From the NCBI GenBank assembly GCA_015956445.1, contig WIUZ02000006.1:1054001-1118000 (forward strand): 64,000 nt of DNA. The letters run 5' to 3'. The DNA is from Thelephora terrestris (taxonomy: Eukaryota; Basidiomycota; Agaricomycetes; Thelephorales; Thelephoraceae). Position 1 is the stretch's first letter. Every line of letters begins with the position of its first letter. Shown one piece after another: positions 912 to 63,345 of this stretch. The notes below the pieces were generated by a model. The model saw only the letters and a program-made list of their open reading frames with translations, ran no database searches and was not told the origin of the DNA. A program made the translations under genes and the position numbers.

Positions 912-1123
912 TACACCCAGATTGCGATTGAAAACGGAGCAAAAGACACAAGCAAGAGTAAAGAGCAGGGAGGTGAAGAGTGTCTCGACGTCGGAGGTCA
1001 GACTCGGAAGACTGCTTCTGGTGTTTGGCCATGTTTGTATTCTACCTCTTTCCTGATCAATCTATTCCTTTCCGTCTATTCCACCCGCCTCGTCCAGCAC
1101 TTTGCAGTCCTCAACGATGATAT

Positions 1124-1616
1124 TCACGACGACGACGACGACGACGACGACTCTGGTGGTCGCCGGTGACTCCACCACGATTTTCCGTAGCTGACCTATG
1201 GATCCAATACCAATCACGGTCAACAGAGTGCGATCGGCTTCGCCAGCACTCACTAGAATTTCTTCGCCCTTCTTGATCGCTTCACCGCCTGTCCAGATGC
1301 TCATTCGAAGTTCGCCGTTATCGCCACGCCTTTCTTCAAATTGAGCGTTGGGCTTCCCGCAGATTCCGCGGTAATCGTTTATGAAACGTCCTTCGTTCCC
1401 CATCGCAGAGGCGTCGACCCCAACGCTTACTGAGCCATCTGGAGCGCGATACAATGATAAATCGTAGTCCGACGACGGCCTATCATCGCAATGAACTTCG
1501 CCCAGATAATCCAGCAGATACGTTCGTAGCGGTATCTTCTTCGCCGCAAATAATCCGAATTGTCCCACAGCCTGCTCGAGTTGTAGATCCAATCGCTTCA
1601 GTTTGATACTTTCCAT
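1124..1616 (-). CDS. Small SET-domain protein
   Basis: Putative lysine methyltransferase of 144 residues, exons 1254-1616 and 1124-1195. Almost the whole protein is a SET domain: GLFAAKKIP, LLDYLGEVHCDDRP, then GNEGRFINDYRG (the conserved NHxC-like region, here ND), and GEEILVSYGKSWW after splicing of a 58-nt intron. The splice is phase 0 and restores the conserved VSYG motif, which an unspliced reading loses. There is no pre-SET or post-SET cysteine cluster, so the substrate is unknown; compact SET proteins of this kind are common in basidiomycetes. The C-terminus after the SET domain is a run of eight serines coded by a TCG repeat. The start at 1616 is the first ATG and lies 324 bp from the divergent casein kinase gene. 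Confidence 0.82.
1128..1151. repeat. (GAC)8 trinucleotide microsatellite
   Basis: Eight perfect GAC units. On the minus strand they read TCG and code the poly-serine tail of the SET protein just before its TGA. Length changes in units of three would alter only the tail. Confidence 0.95.
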
Positions 1617-1940
1617 CGCTTTTACAAACTAAATGCACTTGCTGGATGATTAGACGGCCCGGTAATCTTACGGATGACAATGAACGATGACTGCGGTTTG
1701 ATGTGCCCATGAGAATCTGGGAGCCGTTGTCCTTTGATAATATCAAGGATATCCTTGCTGACAGAGGAGTGGTATTTTTGGGTAGTAAGATATCGGATAT
1801 TCTTTGGCCAGTGTGGCGGCGTGTAGGATGAGGGAGAGCGAGACATTGCCGTGTCGGAGGCCGGCTATCGCTGATTTGATTGGCTGTTCGCATCCTCTCT
1901 CTCAGCGACCACCACCACCGGCGTCGTCAATTCTTCCGCG
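1617..1940. promoter_or_regulatory. Divergent intergenic region SET / CK2 alpha
   Basis: 324 bp between the two start codons, which point away from each other, so it should contain both promoters. No clear TATA box or repeat was seen. Short ORFs on both strands lack codon or family support. Confidence 0.5.
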
Positions 1941-16131: not shown

Positions 16132-18809
16132 ATGCCCGACCCCAATACCACTCCCCCCGTAAAGCCAGACAGAGTCTACGATCCAGAAAACGGAGGAGAC
16201 GATATCCAACTATACGATCACTCCGACGTTGCATCCTCGCGGTCTGGCTTCCCGCTCCCCGCTCGAAGCTACAGCAGAAGGTCGGTCGCGACTTCGACTT
16301 CAACACAGAGGTTTCTGCGGAGAACAGGATTCAGCGCGTTCTATTACCACCCAATAACGCAAGTGTGTTTGCTGGGCTTGGTGTGTTTCTTATGTCCAGG
16401 TTCGTTCAATGCTTTGAACGGGCTTGGTGCGGCGGGGAGGGTCGATTCCGGGGTGAATTCCAATTCCAATTCTGCGCTGTACGCCACGTTTACGGCTGCT
16501 GCTTTCTTCGCCGGGTGAGTCGTTTTTTTCCCTGCCGTTTTTCTTCTCTCCTTGGGTTTCTGTCGTCGAGGTTTGGGGCTGGGTCAGCGGTCGATCGCGC
16601 TTGGCCGGCGGCGGGTTTCATGAGGTCTGGACGATTGGATCCTTGGCTCCTATGTCACCCTCGTTCTACATACCTATCGGCGATCAGAAATGGAACGCGT
16701 TAGCTTCCGCCGAGAGGGGGGTCGGGCAGTGGGTGGAACGTATACCCAATTGGTTCCGACCCGCAGTCATTGCCCCTCCCTCCCCGGCCTCCGAGTCCCT
16801 CTCCTTCCGCTCGATCTTGATCCGCGTCGTTCTTCGGCTTACAGCTTGACGCTTCCGCAGATCTGTTAATAACAAGTTGGGACCGCGCGTGTTGCTGTTC
16901 GCTGGGAGCCTTTCGTATTCGTTATATGTTTCGTCTTACTTGTGAGTACCTGTCCGATAGAACCTTGTTATTTTCGCAACGCCGCCCGACCATCATCGCC
17001 ACGTCCGCTTCGTATTCTCACCTGTGCCTATAAGATTGATCGTACCGACCCCTTTGCATTTTTTTCTACGAGACGCGTTCAATTGACTGACATTGATCTT
17101 TATCACCCTCCTCCCCCTTTGTTTGCTTATAGGGCGTTGACACTACACGCGGACGCCGGACCTTACAACATCGCCTCTGGAGCTATCCTCGGAATCGGAG
17201 CCGGTTTCCTATGGACGGCTCAAGGCTCGCTGATGCTCGCCTATCCGACGGAGAACAACAAGGGAAAGTTTATCGCGATCTTTTGGTCGATCTTTAATCT
17301 GGGTGGGGTCGTGGGGGCGGCTGTGTCGTTGGGACAGAATTATGATTCTAGCGTGAGTGCAGCCCAGGATTTTTCGTGGGGTTTTTTTTGGGGGGGGTGC
17401 AGTGGGTTGACCGTTTTATGCTTTCGTCTAGGGTGATTCTGGTACGTTCCGTACTTGTTTTGGCGGTTCTTACCGGCGAAATGTTATGCTCACGTCCTCG
17501 CTTTATCGTTCGACGATCCAGTGACGAGAGGGACTTACGTGAGTTGATCCGGTCTGGTCAGGGCGACGTTTTCGAGGTCGCTGGTAGTTGAGCCGTACCG
17601 AGCCTATGGTCAAAGTTTGCTGACGGTTTCGCGTTTTGTGCTTTTTAGATCACGTTTCTCGTGCTGACGATTGTGGCGGTGATAATCCCCTTGCTGATGG
17701 CCGCCCCGAACAAAATGGTCCGAGCGGATGGTTCGAGAGTCACCACTCCCCGACACCCGTCGTGGAAAGCCGAATTCAAAGGCCTGTGGATCGCTCTCCG
17801 AACAGATCCGTTCATCATACTCCTCTTCCCCATGTTCTTCGCCAGCAATTATTTCTACACCTGGCAGTTCAGCGAGTACAACGCCGTCTTGTTTAACATC
17901 CAGGGCCGGGCGCTGAATAACACCGTGTATTGGGTCGCGCAGATCCTTGGGAGCGTGTCGATCGGCTTGTTGTTGGACCAGAAGCAGTACAGGAGGAGGA
18001 TCAGGGCGTTTTTGGCCTGGGCCATTTTGTTGTTTATGGTCATGGCCGTTCATATTTGGGCGTGGTATTATCAGAGGTGCGTTTTTCGCCGTTTTTTTTT
18101 GTTCTCTTGCGCGATTTCTTCAGTGTCGTCTTCCCTTTTTCTGTGTGATGTCCGGTGATGTCTGATTTTGGGACGCTCTATAGGGATTATTCGAGGGGGA
18201 GCGTACGCCGGGGAACGGAGAAACTGGGGATTGAGGATGATGGATACGTCCCACGCGTGTTGCTCTACATCTCATTTGGGTTGTTGGACGCGATGTGGCA
18301 GACGACGTCGTATTGGCTCATTGGAGCCATGTCGAACTCGCCGCAGAGGTTGGCGCATTTCACTGGGTTTTGTGAGTCCCTCTCGTTGGCTCCATTAGTA
18401 GCGGGGGGAAAAATGCTGCAAATCATTGATTGCGTTGGGATGGTGCTCTAGATAAATCTATGCAGTCTGCCGGTGCTGCTGGGGTCTGGAGAGCGGATGG
18501 AGCTGGTGTCCCGTGAGTGGCCGCGAAACCCCCCTCCCCCCCCCTCCACCCTCTTTTTCTGATTTCTGATCGATCTCCGTTGGGGATGCTGGTGGCGTTC
18601 GCGATTTCGTGTGCAGGTATCTGAACATATTTTATTCGACTTGGGGCTTGCTCCTGGCCGGGTTAGTGTTTGCGCTTCCGATGATGCATATGCGGATAAG
18701 GGACCACACGACGGAAGATGATGAGCTCGATTTTGACGGTGGTGGTGGTGGTGGGGATCCTTCGTCCGTCCCTCTTCCGGCTCGCGAGTCGGAAACTTGG
18801 GAAAGGTAG
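16132..18809 (+). CDS. UNC93-like major facilitator superfamily membrane protein
   Basis: Polytopic membrane protein, 526 residues in nine exons: 16132-16514, 16861-16941, 17133-17352, 17432-17441, 17522-17538, 17649-18076, 18184-18371, 18452-18512, 18617-18809. After a polar N-terminus the first span starts at FYYHPITQVCLLGLVCFLCP, followed by NALNGLGAAGRVD, GSVNNKLGPRVLLFAG, GAILGIGAGFLWTAQGSLML, AYPTENNKGKFIAIFWSIFN and LGGVVGAA. These are the conserved blocks of fungal UNC93/DUF895 proteins. The 10-nt and 17-nt exons give GDSVTRGTYITFLV, matching the family block before span 5. The C-terminal half continues with DGYVPRVLLY and HFTGFYKSMQSAGAA. The tail is acidic with a run of glycines. 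Substrate unknown. The first intron is unusually long (346 nt). Confidence 0.88.
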
Positions 18810-21061: not shown

Positions 21062-24000
21062 TCAAGGTTCCGCCAAGCCATATGAGTCGTAGTCTCCATC
21101 AGACCCGGACGCAATCTCGTCAGACTCGTCGCCACCCCTGTCGCTGCCCGAGCTCCCTTCATCAGAGGGGCCGGAGTCTTTGTGGTCTGCGTCGTCCGAC
21201 TCAGAATGCTCTGATCCATCGCCGTCGTCGTCGTTGCTGTTGTCGCGTGCGCCGAGGGCGTCTTCGTCGTCGTCTTCATCTTGAGGGGGGGCGGGCTGGT
21301 GGACGTGCTGCTTCCCGTGGACGCGTTCGCGCGACATGTTCTCGTGCTTGACCTCAACCTCCCGCATGTACTTGTGCCCGATACCTCCTCCTCTATACCT
21401 CATGAACATGTCACGGTCGACGAACCTACCATAGACGTTCAGTATATGTAGTCCTGTATGATATGTAATGGAGGGACTTACTGATTGACGAAGTAGGCAT
21501 CCCAATCGGATCCCTTCTTGGGGTCCCAAGCACTCACTGGAGCAGCCGGCGAGCCTGTTTGTCGAAGACCGAGAGTGAAGCCGGGAATGAGGTGGGACCC
21601 ACGGACAATGTCGTCCGGGTCGAGAAAGCCGAAAGCGCCGTCCTCGAGGGGTGGGACGAACTTGACCCGGTACAGCCGTTTTGCATTCCACCCGGCTCGG
21701 TAAGTGTTGTCGAGTCTGAACCAACGGACCCAAAGAACGTCCATCCTGACCTCGTCCGACATGGTCGGCCCATGGAGGACGTCGATGCGAAACATACCGA
21801 GGACCTGCGCGTAGGCATATGGGTGGTCGTCAGCTTGTGAGAGGGTCATGACATTTGACCGGCCCCTCATGTTCACCTTGTCCTTGCGGCGGCGGAGGTC
21901 GTACGTCGTGTGATAGATGCTCATAGTGCACCGCTGTTCAAGCCGATCCTCGGCGATGTAGAGCTCGTTGCGGTCGTTCTCCGTGAACGATGGTGGGTCG
22001 GAGTCATATTGCTTGCCAAGGACACGGGCGAGAAGGTGGTCTTTGAGTTTTGGAACGAAGTCCTGGGAGGGCGTTAGTTTGGAAAAGTGATCAGGGGAAA
22101 TCGATATGTGTACCTTCAATGCGGGGTCACCGACCTGCAGGTTCGCCAGACCGTAGAGGTCAACGTGGTGGCGATCCTTCTCCGCCATCGTGTAATGTTG
22201 CCGTGGCAACGCGGCATTGGCGTCGTCCCTGGGCAGACGCTGTCTTGATGTTGTGCGACCACCAGTTTTGGCCCTCAGTGTGTTGACGTATTTTGCGGTA
22301 GTGACGTTCCATCCGTTCATGCTTCGCGATTTGACGCTCGAACCGAGCCTTGTTGGTTCGCTTGTAGAACCGTTTGACGCGGCGGTGCTCGAGCTCACCC
22401 TGTCAGTTGTGCAGGTCAGTGGCGAGACTTGCAATAAAAGGGATGGACATACGTGGCCTGTGGTGAAACAGTCGGTTGGACCAAATTGTTCGATGTGATC
22501 GGCGTAGTCCCCGAGGGCGTGGATCTTGTATGTCTTCAAGTTGAAACCCGAGCCTTTGGGGATGACTGCCTTTGATGGTTTCTTGCCAGCTTGTCGAGAG
22601 GTGGGAGTGGCTGTTTTGGTGTTCGTGGCCTTGCGACGATATGCGGCAGCGGCCTCCCCTGGTAACAGTTTGGTAGCATACTTTGGGCACAATTTGTTGG
22701 CATAGAGACGGAGGAGACGGCCAAGTTCTTTCGTTTGTGATCGAAGGGACGCAATCGTGTCTGTGGTGTGAAGGCGGAGTTTTGCATAGGCATGCCAGGT
22801 GGTCAAATCAAAGGCGAGGTCGAGCAAGATGTTATTGTGTTCCCGGTCGGGCAGGATGCCTTCGAGAACTGGGATCCAACACTGGAGAGGGAGATATATG
22901 TATTAGGACTTAATCCAGTGAGAACGACGGAACAATACTCACCTGGATAATATCCTCGAAGTCTCGGCCCGCGAGCTTTTTCATAGCAGAGACACTTCCC
23001 CCAAACCTTCGGATCGTGTCACGACCAAAGGTTGGAACTTGACGGAACCTGTGGGAAAGATGTTGATCAGCGAATGGCTATATCTTGAGTACACTAGTGA
23101 TTACCGTGCGTCAAATTTGTTGACTGCTGCCTCACCAACAGAGTGGAGTATTCGGACATTGTGTGTGATCACACCCTTCCCAACGCCAAGTTCAAAGTCG
23201 TGGAGAACGTCAACTGGCATAATCTTGGCCGGGTTCAGACCGAGTTCAGTGTGGTAGGCATTCTGAGAAGTGTGAGCGAAAGCCGTGGCAGAATAGGTCG
23301 AAAATGTATCTTACCCTCGTTAAAAGCAACGACCCCCTCTTTAAGATATCCAGGTCTCCACCGACGCTCCTCCCAAGGTCAAAGACGAGCCTGCGAGCAT
23401 GTTCTACACGACCCGCAGCATCATTCGCGTAGTCCCGAAGGAGACGTCGGACGGCCTGGTCAGAGACCATGCCAATTCGGGGAACACCGTCCTTTAAGAT
23501 CAGACAGCGGGGGCATAGGAACAGTCCAAGGCTCTTGATCGTTGCTAAGATAGACCTGAATGATCGTTAGCAAGGGGATAACTCTACGGAACACAAAGAC
23601 TCACTTTTCTTTATAATCGGCCGAGTGGAGAAGGATCTGAAGCAACCAACGTCGTAAAATGTCATCCCCACATCGAACGCGACGGGGCTTCTTGTGGGCG
23701 TCTGCACATGACCCTCCAAGAACCAGTCGCAGCACCGCGTGTGTTAGCTCACGCCCAAGAAAGGTGAGCATATCCGAGTTCGGTTCTTTGCCGTAGTGCT
23801 TCTTGTAGAATTCCTTGATGGTGTCAGGGAGCTGTCAAGAGTAATGAGATCGGTGACTCAGGCGCGCTCGGTGGCATCAAACGACAGCGTACCGTGGGAA
23901 TATACGCGATATGGTGAGCAGCAAAAGAGGTCGGCTTCGAACGGACGTACTTGGAGACATTTCCGAGAAAAAGGTAGATTGGCCACAGCGCAGCGTTCCC

Positions 24001-25302
24001 GAACGAGGCTAGATGGGTAGAATCGGAATAGAGAAGTGCTGAGACAATGAAGGTTTCCAAGTCGTTGTCTGGTCCGCGCGCCAAGTCGAGGTTGCGTCGC
24101 ATCTCTGCATCGGTCTCGAGCATTGTGTTCGAGTTGTAAACCTCTGAATAAACCCGGACAGGATCCTCGCCCGGACCTGGCCTCCACCATTCCTTGTGTG
24201 GGGCAACGTGGATGTCGTTGAACGCCTCGGGGTCCTCAAGCTCGGCAGTGATCACCTCGACAATGTCCCGATATAGGATTCCCTCGACAACGAACTCGGG
24301 CGCATTGCCTTCCTGCTGCTTCACCCCTGTACACGGCACCCGTATGCTGACCGAAGCCTCCTTCCAGCCATCGCCCACCTTGAGAGCTGCTCCCGGGTTT
24401 GATATCCATCTTTTCCCAAATCGTCGAATCGCGGTGACAGCGTTGAAGTTCTCAAGCATTGAGGGATTGAACTTTGGGTGCTTGATGACGTTGTGGATGA
24501 GATCGTTAACCCCCGCAGGGGTGTTTCCAAGGCTTCGAGTCATCCAGGCGAGGAGAAGATCTTCGGATGTGTTGGCAGAATTGACGGATGGGTCGTTACC
24601 CCCTGGATCTGGAGGTATGACCATCAAGTTGGATCCGACGGATTGGGGAGCAGGCAGGGGTGGATGGGCGTCGGCGAAGATGTCAGGATCGCGTGGGTTG
24701 TGGGAGGAGACAGTGAGGAATTCTCGGAACACCCCGAAGGAGTTGGTGTTCGTGATGGTGCGCTCAGCCGAGTCGCGATTGATGCCATCGATAGCAGTGC
24801 CACGTCCGAGTCCAGAATCATCAAGTCCTGGAGAACCCGGTTGCACAATCTCTCTCCTCGGTTCTGTGGTACGTGGGATTGGTGGCGATGATACAGGTAA
24901 AGGGTCGCGGAAGCGTGCAGGGAGCCGCCGAGCTCTCGCTCTTCGCTGAAGTCCTGTGTCAACAGCTCGATCCAGCAGTGGGACCTGGATGTTCAAGTCG
25001 TTGGTTGAGCCCAGATTTTGTAAGTGAAATAGCATCAGACTTACTGGTGGTAACTCTGGCTCATGGTTCATAGCTTCCAGCGCTTCTAACGCCAATCGCC
25101 GGGCTTCAACATCTTGGCACCTCCGAAGTTCCTCTTCTTCTTCATCGCGCTTACGCTTCAACGACCTCGAGGCCCCAAGCGACGTTTCTTGTTCTGGAAT
25201 GTCCTTGTGAATTTTTTTCTGATGTTGATGGAGTCCTCGGCTCGACGAAAATAGGCGTTGTGGGCCAGAGGCGCAACTTCCCTCATAACAGACGTGAGAC
25301 AT
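21062..25302 (-). CDS. Plavaka-type DNA transposon transposase
   Basis: Transposase-like protein of about 1,245 residues. Exons (minus): 25045-25302, 23893-24984, 23605-23831, 23315-23555, 23105-23262, 22943-23048, 22453-22881, 22114-22399, 21482-22062, 21062-21425. It has an N-terminal C2H2-like finger (CYEGSCASG ... HQHQKKIH), a basic/acidic linker, then the Plavaka core: LWPIYLFLGNVSKYVRSKP, IAYIPTLPDTIKEFYKKHYG, LFLCPRCLI, MPVDVLHDFELGVGK, VPTFGRDTIRRFGG, WHAYAKLRLHT, KTYKIHALGDY, GELEHRRVKRFYKRTNK, FVPKLKDHLLARVLGKQY and the C-terminal FVDRDMFMRYRGGG. An acidic low-complexity tail ends the protein. Splice phases agree everywhere except in 22114-22399, whose length is one base too long for both of its motifs to share a frame: either a missed intron or a frameshift. 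An alternative start is the ATG at 25359. Terminal repeats were not found. Confidence 0.82.
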
Positions 25303-25489
25303 TAGAGCAGTAAGTGTCAGAAGTTTGCGGGCCACGGTAGAGGCGGCTTCATCGAACACACGGCTGTGTTACGGTTTATGACCGATCTATACCATTTTTG
25401 AATTTCGAGCAGGCTGACCTGATTAAAGACCCTATTTCAGGAGTAATTTAGGGGTGCGACCATCCGTTCAACCCCTCCCGTATACAGCC

Positions 25490-30260: not shown

Positions 30261-30668
30261 TCATCGACTCAAGCCACCCAAACCTGTTGGAGGTCTCAGC
30301 CTGAGTACGGCTATAATTACCTGAGGATAGAACATTACATGCTCTGCCTGCAGTGCTTTCAAGGGCAAAATAAAAAGGATGGTTTTGGCCTTGTTCTCCT
30401 CCGAGAGCAACGGCATCACCCAGGGAAGAGTCTTTCCTGACCCAGTCCCCGCAATTGTCGTTACATCAAGGCCAAGCACCAGTGCCTCCGCAATGTCTAG
30501 CTGGAACTCACGGGGCTCATTTCCATTGAACACCGATTTGACCGCCGCAGCAAGTGATGCTCGTGTTTCTTCGGCGTCATAACCGGGTCTTAATTTCCTC
30601 GCATTTTCGAGCCGTCTGAGCATTATAGCTGAGCGGCCCCATGTTCTCCGCCTATTCAGTCGACGCAA
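30261..30668 (-). pseudogene. RecQ-type helicase fragment (N-terminal motifs only)
   Basis: 135-codon frame with PREFQLDIAEALVLGLDVTT (Q-motif region), AGTGSGKTLPWVMPLL (Walker A) and ILPLKALQAEH (motif Ia). The pattern fits the RecQ-like superfamily 2 helicases that occur in many copies in Agaricomycetes. The frame then runs into unrelated sequence; motifs II to VI were not found downstream. It is therefore most likely a truncated copy. It could instead be the first exon of a gene whose remainder I could not see, but the 3' flank to 29675 shows no helicase motifs. Confidence 0.7.
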
Positions 30669-31396
30669 GGCGATATGGCCGGAGACATCAATATCAAAAC
30701 AACAAGTACAAATAAGAAAAGTAGTAAAATCGTTACGGTGGGTTACAGCCCATCAGTAACACGTCACCTGCGTTACCGTGATCCCCCCTCCCCTATACAA
30801 AGTTCACAAGACGGTTGGGAGTACTCTCTGCAGGCACCAAAACAGATCTGTGTACCAGATCCTCTGATACCCGATCACAAAATTTTAACCCCGCTCGGCA
30901 CTACCCCGCAGATGAGGATGGCCTCCCAACCGTCTTGATTCTAGACTAGCAGATCATTACCCTTTATGAGGTCGAGTTCTGCCACTTGCGGTGCCCGATG
31001 CTGGGTCTGCCGTGACAAGATGTGCCCATTGGTAGACATCAGTGTTGGCCATACGGTCTGAGGCCGGTCCAGGCGAGATCCCCGGGTGTAGTTCGCGATC
31101 AAGGCTGTCTGATGTTATTTCTACATTGTGCGTACAGATTTTCCTAAGACCGATATGTTACTTACAATAAACATTACAATGCTCTCGTAACTTGATGGCT
31201 TATCCGCCTTTTCCAAACAACAAAAAGGAAGGGAAAGCAAGATGGCAATCAAAAGTTCGACCCTGCGGGTCTCGTGGAGGCTGCTTAATTACGTTTGTGA
31301 TGAAAAATGCGGAGTTGTGGGATGTCGACTACTCGCGACGAGATTGCGTGGGGGAAGAGTTGGAAAGAGGAAGCGAAGGATGGGGAGGGGCACTGA
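30669..31396. other. No gene recognised
   Basis: Contains imperfect inverted similarity around 30735-30785 (gttacggtgggtta ... cgttaccgtgat). No coding support. Confidence 0.35.
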
Positions 31397-38010: not shown

Positions 38011-38013
38011 GAG

Positions 38014-38085
38014 GGGCCCAACCCGGGTTCGAACCGGGGATCCCTTGCACCCAAAGCAAGTATCCTACCACTAGACCATTGGGCC
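38014..38085 (-). tRNA. tRNA-Pro (anticodon UGG)
   Basis: 72-nt cloverleaf without intron. Acceptor stem GGCCCAA pairs with TTGGGCC; D arm contains GTCTAGTGGTAGGAT; anticodon stem CTTGC/GCAAG encloses the loop TTTGGGT, giving TGG; T arm CCCGG-TTCGAAC-CCGGG. Internal boxes A and B are intact. Reads CCA and probably other Pro codons. Confidence 0.96.
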
Positions 38086-38260: not shown

Positions 38261-41200
38261 TTAATCCCATTGTATCCTTTCGGCGTAGCGTCGGATGTCA
38301 GACACGAGATTTTCTTGCACTTCGTCGGCCGCCCCAGTTGCGACTTTTAGAATGATCTCGCTCAGGGGCGTCGAACCCAGAATGTCGACGTGGTCTGCAG
38401 TGTAACCTCCACCGCGAGGAAGACCCGGGACGGGGTTGTGAGGAAACTGGGTTTGGAGAAAATGATTGTGAGCATCTATAACCATTCAGACGGCTTTTCC
38501 GTCGTGACGGTACCTCCACAGTTGTGACCTTTATCCCCGCCGGGTTCCACCTCTTCCTCTTCCATCCCTCAACGCACATCGCACCAAGGCTCAGCAAGCT
38601 GACCGTTCCGTCGCCCTCACCCATTTTCACTCCATTGAGGACCTATAACACAGTGATCAGGGACCCGGCGAGCACAGCTATATTGTGGACTGTGAACCTT
38701 GGGATTTACTGTATGGTCAGTATACTCGTGATCGATGCAACTTGGTTTGTGTAGCGGTAGGTCCAGAGGGGACCTTGTGGTCCCACAGTTCGACTCCCCC
38801 GGGCATTCCGATTGTTCTGCGTCCGCCAGAGTGTCGTCGTGTTCGTATTGACCACGAGTGTACCTATGCATGATGTCAGGAAGCGACGAGACTCTGGCCA
38901 TCCTAGTTGCCATACCAATACGAACGCTGGGGGAGGGAGCCGTGGTAAGTGAAATATCTCGTTTTCGAGTGAGAAGCAGCCCACCTCTGTATCCTTCCCG
39001 TGGCCGTACACACAGAAAAACTTCATCGAAGGAGCGTTCGGGAGCCTAATTTCCAACGGATTCGTCCACTTCGTGTGGTCACGATCATTCGCCTTCAATT
39101 TCTTCTCGTCTTTCTCAATACCATACGAAAAGTTTGTGGCCAGCATTTTCTTTTGGGAGTCAGCTATATTTTCTCGCGAAACGTCATCGGGAATCCAAAC
39201 CTGGAAAGTAGTTGGTGTATGTTCCAGGATCCACGTCCCTGCGTTATCAGCCGTCATGTTCTTCGCCTTCGCGTCGTTCAACTTGGCTCGGAACGCGATA
39301 AGCTCTCCATGGGAGTGATCGGCCCCGTCGACATCATCTGGCGCGTGAGTCGAGTTTCCCCAAATAACGTCGCCACCCTGTAAGTCGCCTTTGAGCCCCT
39401 CACTAATAGACGGGGACCTCAAAGGGGCCTACCTTGACCCACATACTGGCACTGCCAACCCAGCTGCGGAACAATCTCGCTCGCTCTTTCCTCGAAAAAA
39501 ACCGTTCGAGAACTTGGGGATATGCGGTTAGCATCGTCTCATCGAAAGGCACAGGCACGCCGTACCATAGGCACCTGCAGGGTTCACCTGAACTGTGTCC
39601 TTCATCTCTCCCGACAGGAATGCAGCCATCGCTTTGGCCTAAAGTACACACCGTCTTTAGGTGGTCCAACAGAAAACCCTTTCGAAAAAACGTACCACAC
39701 CCTTCCCAATAGTTAGCCTCATCAACCAGCAACGAAAAGATCGTCGCGTACCAGATGTGTGCCAGCAATGGAGACGAAGGATTCGACGTGGTCCTGAGTC
39801 AATACCGCTATGGATCAACATAGGGAAAGGTAGGAACGCCCCCTTACACGTACCTCAACCCAGTTAGGCCCACCGCCTCCGTGCTCTGGCGACTCGACCC
39901 ATTTGAAACTACGGTGGTGAGTAATCGAATCCGCCGTCAAAAGTGACGATCAGGCAGAATACCTACAAATACTGATCGCCAAGAGGCACGGTCAGGGACA
40001 ATGAAGTTCGAGAGAGCACGAGTGGAAGTTATTAACCAGCGTGACCTAACATGATAGTCAGTTCGCTGCATGGAGCGTGCTAATGCTTTCGACAAACAGT
40101 TGTTCCCATGGAGTGTGCAGCAATGACAGTCTTCCTCTTCTGTCGCTTTCTGTATCAGGGGAGATTGAGGATGATACAAACTCGACGGGGGTAGAGCCGT
40201 ACTTGAACCCCTCGATCGTACTCTTCAGTTTCGAGAAATACCCGTCACGTTCCTCCAAGTTCCAGCACGACAGTCTCCAGTCATAAGGTGCCAAATACAG
40301 GTTGTTCGTGTCATAGTTGACGACAGCTAGGTTCTCGATGATCTTGGACCTTGATGGGCCGGGTTCAGCTGATGATCTAAACAAACTGGAGGCGACATGC
40401 ACCCACCATAACCAATACCCTTGGATGAAGGTGCTGGCTGCGTCGATGCCCTCCACAGAACGCACTTTAGCGCCAGGCGGATCGAGTCCGGTCTCAGGGT
40501 CAAGCATGAGACTCGCCATCCACCGCTCCTTGTTGAACGTGACTTGGGAAACCATTGAGAAGCCACCCCAGACTTTTTGCCTAAAGAATCTTCGAAGTTC
40601 TGGGGTCGTTGACCAAGATTCCAAACTCTGAAAACGACTTGGTCAAGTATGCGAAGTGATCGCACAGGCGAGGGACCCACCGTTGAAATAATACCAGGGA
40701 TCAAAACCAGAGGGTATTTTGCCTCTAGTCCTCTGGATTTCATCTCTTCACCGACTTGGAACTCCCGCCCGTCGTTGGCTAGCTTCCACGGTTCAGGTAT
40801 GTTGCTCTTGAAGCGTTCCCACTCGGCTGAGAAGTCGAATTGGGGCATGGAGGGCATCGTGATATCGTAGTCATCGAGGAAGAGTTGAAGATTCTCAGGG
40901 AGGGCTGGGAGAGTTGAAGGAGGGATAAACCAGCCCGCTAAGAGCAATCCAACTATAAAAGACGATGTACACGTGCCGTTGTTGAGCGATAAGCTCCCGT
41001 GATGATGGTGGATAAGACGCAACTGATGATCCCCAGTGGGAACAAAAACCTCCTCTTGGCCAGAACAGACCTATTTTCCGACTATCACGGGGTAAGCCTC
41101 GTGTGGACGGTTCCAAGTTAACGCCGCGATACCTCTTGTTTGTGCTTCCTTAGCTTGCTCTTCAGACCCTTCACGTTCTCCTTCAGGATATTTGTGTCGT

Positions 41201-41366
41201 CCGGTAACGGTGTTCCAGGGTCTGAGCTCGGGGGTTGGTCTGGCGGATCTAACACCCGGATGGCGGGTGCAACTGTCCCCGACCTGTTGAAATCTACAGC
41301 TGTCGAACCAGCATCGGGTGTATCTTCGCGTTCTCTCTCGGGTTTTCTGCGGTTTTTTCCTGCCAT
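38261..41366 (-). CDS. LRO1: Phospholipid:diacylglycerol acyltransferase (PDAT, Lro1)
   Basis: ER enzyme moving an acyl chain from phospholipid to diacylglycerol to make storage triacylglycerol. 684 residues in 19 exons: 41133-41366, 41024-41054, 40681-40952, 40407-40627, 40203-40349, 40098-40149, 40037-40045, 39967-39971, 39854-39908, 39752-39793, 39696-39701, 39566-39638, 39433-39512, 39201-39377, 38985-39149, 38922-38926, 38698-38863, 38514-38642, 38261-38446. A basic N-terminus leads to one membrane span (FLFPLGIIIGLLLAGWF). The LCAT fold follows: PLVLIPGIIST, APYDWRLS, HSMGTTVTLYFFKWVE (Ser315), LSGEMKDTVQ, ERFFSRKERARLF, KWTNPLEI, GEGDGTVSLLSLG (Asp591) and TADHVDILGS (His642). Four exons are only 5-9 nt; each restores a conserved block and the length matches yeast Lro1. 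Confidence 0.94.
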
Positions 41367-52742: not shown

Positions 52743-55700
52743 ATGTTTGTGGCATTATGCAGGCACTCGTCTCGTTCTCCTCGGTCCCATGGTGTCACTA
52801 GGTTTTTTGCCACGCGAAAAGCAGCTTCTACTGTGGTCAAAACGAAGAAGAAATTATCGGAATTGCCTCGGGCAAAGTTGCTGGCTGATGGAACTGTTGC
52901 TGCACCTCTGGAACCGTTCGATGGCGGCCTGGGTATAAAAAAGTCCACTCGCCGTAGATCCAGTGCGCCATTTCGACTCGGTGCATGTAATTATGTCTAA
53001 TTGCCGTTTGGAATACATTCCATCTCCCGTCATGCTAAAAGAGCGCGCGGCTGAAATACAAGCCCCTGCTAATATCGAGGAAGCATGTCAAGCTTCTCCA
53101 CAACGGAGAAAGCGCGTCTCTTCCAAGACTGCGGCAGCGCAAGAACGAGACGAAGAGGATATTGCGCCAGGTAGAACAGACTTTCCCTCTGGTACGACAC
53201 TTTCCTGAGTAACCAAAGAGAAACCCAGGAATGCCCTTGCCGCTGAGGTTTTAGACAACTTGGCCAAGTTCCCCCATTGCATACTCCTGACCAGGGTTGG
53301 CCAATTCTACGAGGTATACTTGGCTTTACTTGCACCTTGCCACCCATTTCCTCATCATCGCTGTCAGTCATACTTTGACCAAGCTGCAGAGGTCTCACAG
53401 CTCCTCAACATTAAACTCGCTGGCAAGAGTTGGGGAGGTAAACGGATCCTTATGTGCGGCTTCCCAGTCCTACATCTCCAAAAATACCTGAGAGTCCTAG
53501 TGGAGAAACACAAGAGATGCGTGGCGATGTGCGAAGAGTTTCTCAAGGAACCACTCGAAGGTCCGAAAGGCGGTTTCGATCGGAGAGTCGCCCGAATTAT
53601 AACCCCGGGGACACTCATCGACGAACCATTCCTAAACGCGGACGAGAATAATTACTTACTCTCGGTTGGAACCAGAGGACCAGTCGAGAGTACTACGCGC
53701 ATCGTTGGGTTAGCGTGGATCGATGTGTCGACCGGCGAATTCTTTACAAAGGAGTGCACCGTCGAGAACCTCAGAGACGAGCTGGTCCGCATCGCACCCC
53801 GAGAAGTAGTCATGGACAAGGACACAGCTGATGATACCCACTTCATCACCGCGCTCGAAGTCATGGATCAGGAAAGAATCGTCCTCTCCCTCGTCACACC
53901 CAAACCCCCTGGACAGCAGACGTCGTTCGGGTCCCCCGAAGACGGGGAACCGATAGGCTCAACTCTCAGCCAGGACGAAAGCACGGCAGTGGAACTACTC
54001 ACCACATTTCTCCACGAGAATTTGCTCGAGTCTATGCCCAAGTTGACCCAGCCCAGCAGGGAGTTTAGCGAAGAGAGAATGGAGATCGACTCCCATACTG
54101 TCAAGGGACTCGAGATTCGAGAGAGCATGAGAGAAGGTGGGACCACCGGCAGCCTTCTCAGCGTCATCAAACGCACTGTCACTTCGAGTGGGACTCGCCT
54201 ATTGGCAAGGTGGTTGTGTAAGTGGGGCTCGAATGTGTTCCTCCTCCCACTAGCTCTACTGACAGTGCGAATGAAAGGTTCCCCCTCCACACGGCTCGAA
54301 GAGATAAACTTCCGTCAATCACTGGTCGCGTTCTTCGTTGCACGGCCTCATATTCGCGACGATGTTAGGCAGCTATTGTCTGGTGCAGAGGACGCCACCA
54401 GAATAGCCCAGCGTTTCTTACTCGGCCGAGGACTTCCCAGTGACTTTTCCTCTCTTAATTCCTCTATCATAACCTGGATTTCTATCAACAAACGCCTCGG
54501 CTTAGAGCGTAAAAGGGAGCGAAAGGAGCGTGGTAAACTGGCTACGGATGAATGGTCGTCCGTGGACACGCTATTGGGGAGGATGAAGAACCTCACGGAC
54601 CTCTCAGTGCGCATCGCCACATCCGTGACTAGGACCGACTTATCTGCAGACCTTGAGCCCGAAGGCGAGGAAGAAGAAGCAAAATCCGACGCTAATTCAC
54701 CCACTGGCGAAATCAACTTGACCTCTGGAGCGACAAACTGGATCATTCGGCCAGAGTGAGCACTGCGTTGCATTATACGATACAGGTACTAATACCAGAC
54801 CAGCTTTTCCAAGGAGCTCGCTATCCTCCACAAAACTATGACCAAATTGCTCAAGGAAAAGGTCTCTCTTCAGCGTGAGCTAGGCAATACCTACGGTACG
54901 TGGGTTTTGCCGTTTCCTGCTGAATTGTCCTGCTGAGACCACTCAGGCGTCTCTTCCTTGACATTGCGGTCATCCGCGAGCCAGGGAATGTTCGTTCACA
55001 TATCCCGCGCCAAGCGTGACGGACACATCCTCGCAGAGTATCCAGAGTTTATCCACCTGACCCAAACCGGCTCGACTAGAACCTACTTTCACCACGTGCG
55101 TCAGATCCCAAGGCATACGATTTCAACGCTGATACTGCTTGCAGAAATGGGCCGTACTTGGTCAGAAGATCGTAGAAACATCCTTGGCAATTACTGCGGC
55201 CGAGAAGAAGGCGTTCGAAACCCTAAGAGAGGAGGTTTGCACTGTCCCACCCTTTGTTTGCTTAAGCTTAATGGCATCAGGTCACAATGCACGTCGAAGA
55301 CATCAGGCAGAATGCTAGGGTTATCGACGAGTTGGACGTTGCTTTGGGTTTCGCGAACCTGGCAGTGGAAATGAACTTTTGTCGACCCACCATGACGGAT
55401 GAGTACGCACGACCACTCATCCAATCAGGAAGGCACAGTGACACTATCCCTCTCCACTCTCTAGCTCGTCCTACGACGTAACTAATGGCAGACACCCCGC
55501 CGTTGAACTCGGACTCTTGACTTCCGGGCGCGTTTTCACTCCAAACAGCGTCCATCTCCGCCCCGACTCCCGCCTTCACATCATCACCGGCCCAAATATG
55601 GCCGGGAAATCCACTCTACTGAGACAAACCGCACTGATAGCGATACTGGCACAGACCGGTTCGTTTGTTCCTGCGGAAAGAGCCACAATAGGAATCATGG

Positions 55701-56397
55701 ATCGATTGTTCTCGAGAATCGGCGCCAAGGATGACCTGTTCCGAGACCGGAGCACGTTTATGGTGGAAATGCTGGAGACCGCGGAAATTCTCAAGCATGC
55801 CACGTCCAGAAGTTTGGTGAGCGATTTTTTTTCTCTCCGTCGCTTTGGAATGGTCGTTGACGTTATCAATTGCGATTACGTCCTTTCGTAGGTGATCATG
55901 GACGAGGTTGGGCGTGGTACAACCATCGAGGACGGCTTGGCGATCGCGTTTTCGACAGTTCATCACCTCAGCTCCGTCGCACAGTGCAGGGCACTATTCG
56001 CCACCCATTTTCACGAACTTGCTGATATGCTTGGCCAACCCGCCGACGACCCTGCATCCAGCCACTCCAGGGGCATCAACTTCTATTGCACTGGCGTGGA
56101 CGAGACAGACGTAATGCCCTTTCGCCCCCGTGACGTGTGCGCCAACTGACATCTGGTTCACAACAGGATGGGTATTTCAGTTACTCATATAAACTTAAGC
56201 CCGGTATAAATCGGGACAGCCACGGACTCAAGGTCGCCCATCTCGCAGGGATGCCGCAGTCGGTTCTCAGGACCGCAGAAGGTGCGCTTGAGTGGTTAAG
56301 AAAGGCCCGCACGGATAACAACTCCCAACGCGCCGAGGGACTGAGTAAATTAGGTCAGACACTCCGCGACGTCGGCAGCCCGAACCCTGCCCCATGA
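52743..56397 (+). CDS. MSH1: Mitochondrial DNA mismatch repair protein Msh1 (MutS family)
   Basis: MutS ATPase maintaining mitochondrial DNA. Model of 967 residues in 12 exons: 52743-52932, 53109-53170, 53248-53313, 53368-54217, 54278-54755, 54804-54895, 54947-55095, 55145-55234, 55281-55432, 55492-55816, 55892-56110, 56167-56397. Basic mitochondrial N-terminus ([20 protein letters not shown]). Mut[20 protein letters not shown]. Middle: [39 protein letters not shown]. ATPase: [19 protein letters not shown] (Walker A, 743-751), [31 protein letters not shown] (Walker B), FATHFHELA. The second exon (53109-53170) is tentative, chosen by phase only; the rest is firm. The intron at 55433 starts with GC. 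Length fits yeast Msh1. Confidence 0.9.
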
Positions 56398-56475: not shown

Positions 56476-59400
56476 TCAGTCTGCTTCCTGGAGCTTTGAA
56501 CGGATGTAGTTCAAGGCAGATCCAGCTCGTAACCAATTGAGCTGGTCAGTGGACATGGTGTGCTTAGTTGGAATCTCAAAGGCCTCTCCGGAAAGTTTAG
56601 TAACTTTCAAGCGAATGGCGCTGGAATGATCGCCGTTGAGGAGACCCTCTAGGCCAATGGTCTCAACGATATCCCCTGATCCGATTTTTGAATAGTCGGC
56701 GGTATCTGTAAACCATAAAGGTAAAACCCCTTGTTTCTGTCTCTCTTGTCAGCATGTCGAGGGGTAAAGATTTCTACAATCAACTCTCACTTTAAGGTTG
56801 GTTTCGTGTATACGCGCGAAGGATCGAGCGACGATCATCCCACACCCTGTGAAAAAAAGACAGGGGATAAGCGAAACAAGTCTCCCACATCGTAAATATA
56901 CGTACCATAAAACCTGGGTTGCAAAGCTGCGTGTTCACGTGCGCTGCCCTCACCGTAATTTTCGTCAACAACCAATGCCCACGGTTGCCCCCGAGCTTTG
57001 AATCGCTTCGCAACGCCGGGGATAGTGTCTTTCTCCGATTGGGATGCACCGTGGTCGGTATCAAAGGCAACGTTCATATCTCCGCCTTCGTCGTTGATGG
57101 CCTTTGTTAAGTGATGATGAGTTTTACTGAATGGTGAAGCAATAGGCACACACGGTGATCACTGGTGCGGGAGAATCAGAAACAAACAGGAATGAACAAA
57201 AAGGATGGCTTACGAAGGTTCTCAGAGATGTTCGTGATATGTCCCTTGTATTTCAGCCATTTTCCCTGGAAGGCGTCGCACCGGTGAGCATTTTTACCGT
57301 ATCAACAATGTGTTCTTACAGCAGCGGAGATATGATCGGTTGTGCACTTCCCCCGAACCCGCATTAGGACCTTCAATGGTGGTAACTCGAGTCCTCGGGG
57401 GTTGTGAGGGCCAAAGTGGCTTTCGAATGGCCGAAGGACTTCCAAACGCTGTGAGTCGGGCTTAATCACAACCTCAGTCCCTGGTTGAGGTTCAGGCATC
57501 GGCTTAGGGTAGTAAGACTCATCACCAGGAGTGAAACCCGCTGACGGCAAATCCTTTCCTGCTGGAGGCAGAAATCTGAACAATTCGCCCGACGGTGTCG
57601 TGAGGGAATCCGTCATAGGATTGAAGGAAAGCTTCCCGGCGTAACTCATGGCAGTGACGATTGTGGGGGACGCGAGGAAGTTCATAGTCTTGACGTTTCC
57701 ATCGTTCCTAGAGCGGAAGTTCCGGTTAAATGAAGTAAGGATGGCTACGGAGCGATTGAGCGCATGATAGAGCAGGGATGGGTGCTTGAGTCCCACCATT
57801 TTCTTCTCCTTTCTTGTCCTCACGTTTCCACTGGGTAAAGTTGAGCAACTTTCAGCAGACGGAAGAAAAGTTTCAGACCTGTCCAATACATGGCCCACAT
57901 GCGTTAGCCAACACCGTGGCGCCAGTTTCCTCGAGCAATTCAGTAATCCTGTCCCGCTCAACCGTCGCTCTGATCTGTTCAGACCCTGGGGTGCAGAGGA
58001 AGGGGACCTGCATCTTCAGCCCAGCACTCCTCGCCTGCTGAGCCAAGTTCGCGACACGCGTCTATTGGAGTGTCAGCGCCGTTCAGCTATGCTAGACGAG
58101 TGTGGATTACCATGTCTTCATAAGAACTATTCGTACAGGAGCCAATGAGACCAGCGGACAATTCGTCACTCCACTCATTCTCTTTGATGAAAGATGCGAA
58201 TTTGGACAAGGGAGTGGCCAAATCGGGCGTGAAAGGGCCGTTGATTGTAGGCTCCACTTTTGAGAGATCCTTGCGAACCGTTAGCTGTACGGATTGTTCC
58301 AAAGAAGGTGAAGAATCACAATTTCAATGACTTCGTCGTATTCGGCACCTTCATCCGATGCCAAGAATCCATTCGCAGCCGCCTGGTCCGCCGCGTGGGC
58401 GACAGGGGCTCGCCCTGTGGCATGCAGATACGCCCGCATGTTTGGTGTGTACGGGAACGTTGAGGTAGTGGCACCAACTTCCGCGCCCATGTTGGAGATC
58501 GTTGCGAGCCCTGGAAGGCAAGATTTGAACAAGCAGGCCTTGTTTTGAGCTTTCAACTCACCGGTACATGATTGTTTGAAGACCCCAGGACCAAAGTATT
58601 CGAGAATGCGGCCAGTCCCACCCTATAAAATGATAAGGTGATGCCCCGCCAGGGAAGCGGGTTCCTAACCTTGACTGTCAACTTCCCAGTTAGATAGAGA
58701 ATCAGATCCTTGGTCGTGGCCCAGCCACTCAGATCACCGGTCAGCTTTATTCCTACGCGGAGAACGTGATGAGAAATGGAAGAACCCCATTGTGTCAGTA
58801 CACACCGACGACCTTGGGAGCCTTAAGCTCCCAGGGGGTCCCGGTCATGGCATCGACGGCGTCCGCTCCACCAACCCCAATAGCTAACATACCCAAACCA
58901 GAAGCGTTGGGTGTATGCGAGTCGGTTCCGAGCCTAAGAAACTGGGTTACTTTGTTGCAACGTCACGAAGAGAGACGAACACGCACATCAACATCCCCGG
59001 AGCGGCGTAGTTTTCTAGGACAATTTGGTGGATAATCCCGGACCCAGGCTTCCAAAACTCAATGCCGTACTTCTTCGCCGCACTTTCCAGGAAGTCAAAC
59101 ACCTCCTTGTTTGAAACAATAGCGTTCTGTACGACAGGTTAGACGTGTATTGTGAGCCCCGCAAAGAACCGTCACCTCAAGATCGGCGTGTGCACCGTCT
59201 GACGCCTGGATTAAGTGGTCACAGTGGATGCTGACAGGTACGGCACATCGGGAAAGACCAGCGCTCATAAACTGCAATCTACAGATTCCGGTCAGTTGAT
59301 TGAAGGAGCTTCTCTATTAGGGCGGATATTCACAAAGCCATTCTGAGCATCGATGCCGATCAGCGGGTAGAGTGCTGGAAGCGGTAATGATAACACGTAC

Positions 59401-62151: not shown

Positions 62152-62409
62152 AGAAGATTTATTCTCACCTTCATCGTATCTTCCTTGACTCCATCTTATG
62201 GGAGCGTGCACCCAACCTAATCATGGGTGCGCGCCAGGAAGTGGTATATCTGGAGCAGTATATTATCGCGAGAATATATTTAAAAGACAACTATTAGGTA
62301 TTCATGATGATATTAAACCCGTAGAACGAGGGAAAGTCGGGGATGAATATTTCAGAGATTGATACCAATAGACTCACTGGTCCTAGTTTGCGTATTTTCA
62401 CACGCTTCC
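62152..62409. promoter_or_regulatory. Upstream region of RPC37
   Basis: AT-rich with TATATTATC at about 62258-62266; may include the RPC37 promoter. Confidence 0.35.
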
Positions 62410-63345
62410 ATGGAAGGAGACGACGAGGTGGTGGGTGTGATGCCCATTCATTACACAAACTCTCTCGCTCCCGATGTCGCAGTCCTCCAGTTCCCGCTTC
62501 TGACACGCCCCCTGGAGGTCCCCCCTTCCGCGGCTGCGAGCGGAAAACGGATCAGGGCTCGAATCAAGCCTAATGTCCGGAAACTCGAGGTTCATGTCCC
62601 TGCAGACATCCGTCCCGAGGTATGGAATAGGGAACGAGCCGCTATCTTGGGCGCTGCGAGGCTTGGAGACGATGAGGAGAAAAATCAAGAGTCCAAGATC
62701 AAGCAGAGAGAAGGGGAGCAACCGAGATTAAGCGAAGTCAGACTGAGCAGCGAGGAAATTCCTCGTGCGGGAACGTACATGATAGGAGTAGTCAGAAATG
62801 GTATGCCATTCTTTACGATGGTTCGTACCGTACTCAAGCAAATTTCAAGGAAGGTTGTCTCTACATCCCATTGCCGAGACGCTCCAGCTACGTCCAACAC
62901 TGACGTATATGGACCACCTTTCAAAAAAGAAAGCGGGGCGTGGGGGCGAGGAGTCTGGGTCAGAGGACGATGGACCTCCCCAATACCCCGATGAAGTCAC
63001 CCTGGACGTGGCTAAGAAAGAGAAGCCTGAACCTCAGGCGAAGGAAGTACAAGTTTCTGTCCGAAAATCTATGCCGGATGAGAAGAACGTTCTAGGAGGG
63101 CTATCTGTTCAAAGGCGAGAATTGTTGGCCCATATCCGCGCAGAAGCAGAAGATCCCTGGGAGGAACTCGTGTACCATGATGGCGCAGTATGGATTGTAC
63201 CTTGTTTGTCTTGTTGGACTTGCCGACTGACAATTGTTCTTAGTCGGATGAATCTCACGACGCTTTCGAGTCGCTGTTATCCAAGGAGGAACAAGAGCTG
63301 CAGACATCTGATAACATGTCGATATTTATTCATGGGAAACCATAG
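62410..63345 (+). CDS. RPC37: RNA polymerase III subunit RPC37 (RPC5/Sin family)
   Basis: Pol III initiation/termination subunit that pairs with RPC53; nuclear. 276 residues in three exons: 62410-62800, 62850-63187, 63244-63345. Family blocks: DDEVVGVMPIHYTNSLAPDV, AVLQFPLLTRPLEVP, RIRARIKPNVRKLEVHVP, TYMIGVVRNGRLSLHPI, then AETLQLRPTLTYMDHL restored across the first splice. A charged linker follows and the C-terminus is GLSVQRRELLAHIRAEAEDP with WEELVYHDG. All phases agree. It converges with APC11, stops only 28 bp apart. Confidence 0.9.

Follow-up and report, generated by a model that had tools for sequence, protein, structure and literature searches.

Does an acyltransferase gene of the fungus Thelephora terrestris depend on internal exons of only a few nucleotides, and if so, how would these be spliced and might they control the enzyme? 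The question is raised by positions 38261-41366, read on the minus strand, of a 64,000-nt stretch of genomic DNA that was analysed as a whole and is called the window here. A sequence-only reading of this locus had proposed a PDAT gene that needs four micro-exons, whose splicing could switch oil synthesis. By micro-exon we mean a coding exon, other than the first or last, that is no longer than about 15 nt.

The interest of such a gene is mainly practical. Tiny exons of this kind are reportedly missed by automatic annotation, according to the excerpts available of a report on fungal P450 genes (PMC12940212) and of one on plants (PMC8831610). If its micro-exons were missed, the acyltransferase would enter gene catalogues broken beside the catalytic serine. 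Moreover, the 189-nt segment in which three introns alternate with a 9-nt and a 5-nt exon would make a compact natural test case for short-intron pairing. Here we report that the original observation is mostly right. The size of one exon and the length of the protein are corrected, and the reading of the micro-exons as a regulatory switch is unsupported.

Gene model and family of the product

The gene was assembled from the minus strand between 38200 and 41420, in three frames, by joining open pieces at GT-AG borders. The spliced model runs from an ATG at 41366 to a stop codon ending at 38261 and encodes 712 residues with all codons open. The frame of 684 residues given earlier is not reproduced, as even the variant with a 5-nt exon 15 (see below) gives 710. 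Splice sites, reading frame and family match of the model are directly visible in the DNA. The gene and those of its larger exons that are referred to in the text are as follows.

38261..41366, minus strand: LCAT/PDAT-family gene, ATG to stop, 18 exons, 712 aa
40098..40149, minus strand: exon 6, 52 nt, with the nucleophile motif HSMG (Ser324), ending in GTT
39854..39908, minus strand: exon 9, 55 nt, FKWVESPEHGGGGPNWVE
38985..39377, minus strand: exon 14, 393 nt, ending in YGHGKDTE
38698..38863, minus strand: exon 16, 166 nt, beginning with (W)YTRGQYEHDD
38261..38446, minus strand: exon 18, 186 nt with the stop codon, carrying DHVD (His670)

The spliced product matches the Pfam LCAT profile (PF02450) with 269.3 bits, residues 202-676 covering profile positions 1-391 of 392, and exceeds the curated cut-off of 21 bits. 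At least two LCAT matches are listed for the 40.6-Mb genome; since both of those listed are pieces of the gene at 38261-41366, the acyltransferase gene is probably single-copy. A phmmer search against the PDB sequences yielded eight distinct sequences, all of them group XV phospholipase A2 (LPLA2) or LCAT, with best E-values of 8.3e-9 for LPLA2 and 5.9e-8 for LCAT. No Lro1 or PDAT sequence is among these eight. Among viral contigs, a search for relatives returned 12 stretches that fit a pattern, 0 of which were confirmed.

The AHSMG of the product, which includes Ser324, is aligned to AHSMG of LPLA2. GDGT (Asp619) faces GDGT of LPLA2 within a segment scoring only -1.0 bits, and DHVD (His670) lies in exon 18. 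Asp619 of GDGT and His670 of DHVD are putative catalytic residues. In the PDAT (Lro1) subfamily, a membrane anchor at the N-terminus precedes the LCAT domain. In the present product a hydrophobic FLFPLGIIIGLLLAGWFI, read by eye, starts at about residue 90; its placement depends on introns 1 and 2, N-terminal joins which lie outside the Pfam match, the donor of intron 2 scoring -1.0. Judged by its motifs, the product presumably belongs to the PDAT/Lro1 subfamily.

Four micro-exons in three composite introns

With the micro-exons in the model, all 17 introns measure 50-71 nt. Without them, three composite introns stand out, of 189 nt (between exons 6 and 9), 113 nt (exons 10 and 12) and 121 nt (exons 14 and 16). 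The micro-exons recovered from these are listed here.

40037..40045, minus strand: micro-exon 7, 9 nt GTCACGCTG (VTL), with AG directly before and GT directly after GTCACGCTG
39967..39971, minus strand: micro-exon 8, 5 nt TATTT (Y and two bases of F), with AG directly before and GT directly after
39696..39701, minus strand: micro-exon 11, 6 nt GGTGTG (GV), with AG directly before and GT directly after
38916..38926, minus strand: micro-exon 15, 11 nt CGTTCGTATTG (RSY and two bases of W), replacing 38922-38926

The exons at 40037-40045, 39967-39971 and 39696-39701 are confirmed where they had been proposed, each directly between AG and GT on the minus strand, and their sizes of 9, 5 and 6 nt stand; the fourth is corrected from 5 to 11 nt. 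Exons 7 and 8 restore HSMGTTVTLYFFKWVE and give TVTLYFF directly after HSMGT, where LPLA2 has AHSMGNMYTLYFL. The alignment with LPLA2 has no gap between a point ahead of HSMG and the end of YFFK, a two-residue gap following next, and the TLYF restored by exon 8 is identical in LPLA2. Removal of exon 7 lowers the Pfam LCAT score from 269.3 to 257.8 bits. Skipping of exon 7 keeps the frame, while skipping of exon 8 would end translation after residue 345, closely behind Ser324. Exon 11 restores HLGVAKAM without a gap, HLGVAK facing WGGVAK of LPLA2 and WGGSIK of LCAT. Its removal lowers the Pfam score from 269.3 to 258.5 bits and its skipping keeps the frame.

Of the motifs said to be restored by the micro-exons, HLGVAKAM and the peptide of exons 7 and 8 are confirmed, but ERSYTRG gives way to ERSYWYTRG. 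The latter arises from another donor, located six bases beyond the first, which turns the 5-nt exon proposed at 38922-38926 into an 11-nt exon; a tiny exon near 38.92 kb is thus retained, with 38916-38926 as its better extent. The 11-nt form aligns gap-free to TPRTYIYD of LCAT (7.5 bits) and to TPDSFYYE of LPLA2 (0.1 bits), alignments which are weak taken alone. The Pfam LCAT score is 269.3 bits with the 11-nt and 265.5 bits with the 5-nt exon, and the donor scores 5.8 and -1.5, respectively. We read exon 15 as 11 nt because of the gap-free family alignment, the higher Pfam score and the better donor. Both forms are in frame and both end at a GT, which would be compatible with a 5-nt exon as first proposed or with use of both donors, 6 nt apart and in the same frame. 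The 5-nt form, however, deletes WY from a stretch that is gap-free to LCAT and LPLA2, costs 3.8 bits in the Pfam match and relies on a donor of -1.5 instead of 5.8, and we regard this alternative as very unlikely.

How easily could such exons be found by chance? For each composite intron, we enumerated all chains in which GT-AG introns of 40 nt or more enclose up to three micro-exons and up to 60 inserted nt. This gave 11, 5 and 4 chains for the three composite introns, of which 4, 3 and 2, the real one included, keep an open frame in the required phase. In each composite intron, a single GT-AG chain has the gap-free length: exons 7 and 8 in the 189-nt composite intron, exon 11 in the 113-nt one and, likewise, a single chain in the third. 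When GC donors are allowed, one further chain of the right length appears, in the first composite intron; it encodes TVTICSF and loses the family residues.

In addition, each composite intron was subjected to 20,000 dinucleotide shuffles with the first six and last three bases fixed. A chain of the right length occurred in 4,089, 2,120 and 1,278 of the 20,000 shuffles, respectively. Chains of the right length being so common, an AG-N-GT arrangement alone is no evidence of a micro-exon. An open chain with a family-peptide match equal to that of the real one occurred in 0, 26 and 9 of 20,000 shuffles, figures that lean somewhat toward the model, since the reference peptides used for scoring in enumeration and shuffles were taken from alignments with the 11-nt model as query and are not fully independent. 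The Pfam losses (on removal of exon 7 or exon 11 and on shortening of exon 15) and the donor scores are separate from this reference-peptide scoring. By enumeration and shuffles, the micro-exons are bounded by GT and AG and required for the frame or for conserved residues. Sequence homology supports the proposal that this is an LCAT/PDAT-type acyltransferase gene and that it needs four micro-exons.

Two further explanations would do away with the micro-exons as such. Firstly, they could be artefacts of a pseudogene, or of assembly errors that mimic missing exon pieces. This has no direct support, and is extremely unlikely given four micro-exons in three places with precise AG and GT borders, the needed length and the family residues, in a 712-codon frame that is open and has a nearly full-length LCAT match. 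Secondly, adjacent introns only 5-11 nt apart look, at first sight, similar to twin introns (stwintrons), in which one intron is removed inside the other. A nested intron of this type leaves no bases in the mRNA. Here, however, 14, 6 and 11 nt are needed for frame and residues and lie between complete GT-AG introns, which makes stwintrons scarcely credible at this locus.

Splicing of the micro-exons

Are the introns beside the micro-exons in any way special? Donor sites were scored with a matrix built from 20 introns of two hand-assembled genes of the window, the acyltransferase gene and an aconitase gene, the latter assembled partially.

about 59760-57320, minus strand: mitochondrial-type aconitase gene, partial model, 13 exons, 12 introns of 47-58 nt
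59334..59342, minus strand: aconitase micro-exon, 9 nt AATGGCTTT between AG and GT (completing Gln, then MAL with the next base)

The AATGGCTTT exon restores AQMALLQF, which is gap-free against VAMQDATAQMAMLQF of mitochondrial aconitase. Both genes assembled in the window need micro-exons; the occurrence of micro-exons rests on these two genes, and no genome-wide rate is claimed.

Between the nine introns that flank micro-exons in the two genes and the remaining 20, neither donor score (mean 5.11 vs 5.08; Mann-Whitney P 0.87) nor length (P 0.22) differs. The acceptor score of the flanking introns is lower as a bare mean (3.07 vs 4.32). Individual sites deviate: the acceptor of intron 8 is poor (-0.1), and the donor of intron 7, GTTAAT, has no G at +5. 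A branch-like CTRAY motif is present in 5/7 flanking introns of the acyltransferase gene, in 4/7 at 11-20 nt from the AG, and in 3/10 of its other introns. In intron 8 the motif occurs only at 41 nt from the AG, and the flanking introns 11 and 14 contain no CTRAY motif.

Within the window, 134 stop-to-stop ORFs of at least 110 aa were listed, of which 30 were scanned with Pfam and 8 had matches, aconitase included. A tRNA-Pro gene (anticodon tgg; 38013-38085, minus strand) lies just downstream of the acyltransferase gene and is the sole tRNA that ARAGORN, run with the bacterial code, reported for the window. An ORF at 23827-25368 (minus strand) matches the Plavaka transposase family (Pfam PF18759, 64.2 bits); Plavaka elements are typical of mushroom-forming basidiomycetes, and this ORF and the gene architecture together point to a basidiomycete host. 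A MutS-homologue gene occupies 53209-55888 (plus strand), with MutS I, II and III in the ORF 53209-54756 and MutS V in the ORF 55442-55888. Further single ORFs match the RPC5 (62347-62991, plus strand), SET (1065-1628, minus strand), UNC-93 (16873-17433, plus strand) and DEAD-box (30264-30752, minus strand) families.

The locus is very probably an intact-looking fungal PDAT/Lro1-type gene whose micro-exons would be constitutively included to give a single 712-residue enzyme. Some of its 50-71 nt introns appear to be so closely spaced that the internal exons separating them measure just 9, 5, 6 and 11 nt. Each short intron would be recognised and removed as a unit, its sites being paired across the intron (intron definition). 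For fission yeast, Romfo et al. (2000) reportedly claim intron definition in the title of their paper. Introns beside a micro-exon would presumably be removed one after the other, since both machineries would hardly fit around a 5-nt exon simultaneously. The actual splicing, its order and the activity of the enzyme are what we infer from the sequence.

The sequence-only reading had held that exons of this size challenge exon definition. This emphasis is misplaced: every intron is 50-71 nt long and its sites are likely paired across the intron, so that micro-exon size poses no special challenge, and exons as small have been published in basidiomycetes, as available parts of two reports state (PMC9142197, PMC1184071).

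The same reading had also claimed that skipping any 5-nt exon breaks the frame beside the catalytic serine and that splicing could hence switch oil synthesis. The first claim is true of 39967-39971 only, where the stop after residue 345 closely follows Ser324. Skipping of the exon at 38.92 kb, exon 15, likewise breaks the frame, but about 225 residues later, with a stop after residue 597, far from the serine. The second claim supposes that inclusion is regulated, skipping of exon 8 or exon 15 or retention of a short intron producing a frameshift that would turn the enzyme off in some conditions. The stops after residues 345 and 597 are compatible with it, and fungal examples are described in the accessible passages of two papers, namely a regulated microexon in Trichoderma Xlr2 (PMC11121469) and the suggestion from Phanerochaete P450 genes that microexons favour alternative splicing (PMC1184071). 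However, stops on skipping are coding consequences and do not testify to a switch. In donor score and length the flanking introns are unremarkable, the neighbouring aconitase gene has the same architecture, and the open alternatives are few (4, 3 and 2). The switch claim is unsupported, and regulated inclusion at this locus is highly improbable. We would be just as surprised if a regulated 9-nt and 5-nt pair behind the nucleophile were to tune storage-lipid synthesis through frameshifted, decay-prone transcripts.

On the evidence given for each, the 5-nt exon 15, twin introns, a pseudogene or assembly error and the regulated switch were rejected.

Comparison with known systems

A literature search pairing phospholipid diacylglycerol acyltransferase with microexon found no report. 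Among the nearest counterparts is PDAT of yeast, Lro1. It is presumably resembled in the LCAT profile match (positions 1-391 of 392), in HSMG, GDGT and DHVD and in the hydrophobic segment from about residue 90; in the present gene, by contrast, tiny exons split the codons that directly follow the nucleophile.

A study on Trichoderma virens states that microexons have been characterised to a relatively limited extent in fungi (PMC11121469). There, Xlr2 has a regulated microexon, and its long and short isoforms depend on glucose. A microexon in a fungal gene is common to Xlr2 and the present case, whereas the glucose-dependent isoforms are described for Xlr2. For Cryptococcus, the passage available concerns how reads are mapped near short exons, and exon sizes are not stated in it (PMC3990503). 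In Fusarium CYP621A, a 1-nt exon is supported by reads; as here, an interrupted conserved motif and an intron of twice the usual length had pointed to the tiny exon, and reads later confirmed it (excerpt of PMC12940212). The differences are that Fusarium is an ascomycete and that its exon is 1 nt long and supported by transcripts, while the present exons are predicted from the sequence.

Parallels are also reported from basidiomycetes. An 8-nt P450 exon of Phanerochaete chrysosporium is mentioned in the same excerpt (PMC12940212). According to the accessible text of another report, P450 genes of this fungus contain microexons of 2-10 aa, the shortest exon measuring 6 bp, and introns that are often 45-55 bp long, and their microexons are suggested to promote alternative splicing (PMC1184071). 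Tiny exons and introns are similar to those described here, but the P450 genes form a large family and alternative splicing was observed for CYP63. In basidiomycetous yeasts, cDNA-defined exons of bglA are as small as 5 bp in Sirobasidium magnum and 6 bp in Rhodotorula minuta, the latter gene having 10 microexons by the authors' count; mean introns are 81 and 60 bp, respectively, and the smallest exons of two other species in the same table measure 18 and 64 bp (PMC9142197, in the part available). The bglA genes of Sirobasidium magnum and Rhodotorula minuta thus likewise combine exons of 5-6 bp with short introns, in another enzyme family and in other fungi. Exons as small are already published in basidiomycetes, and the present gene is a further case.
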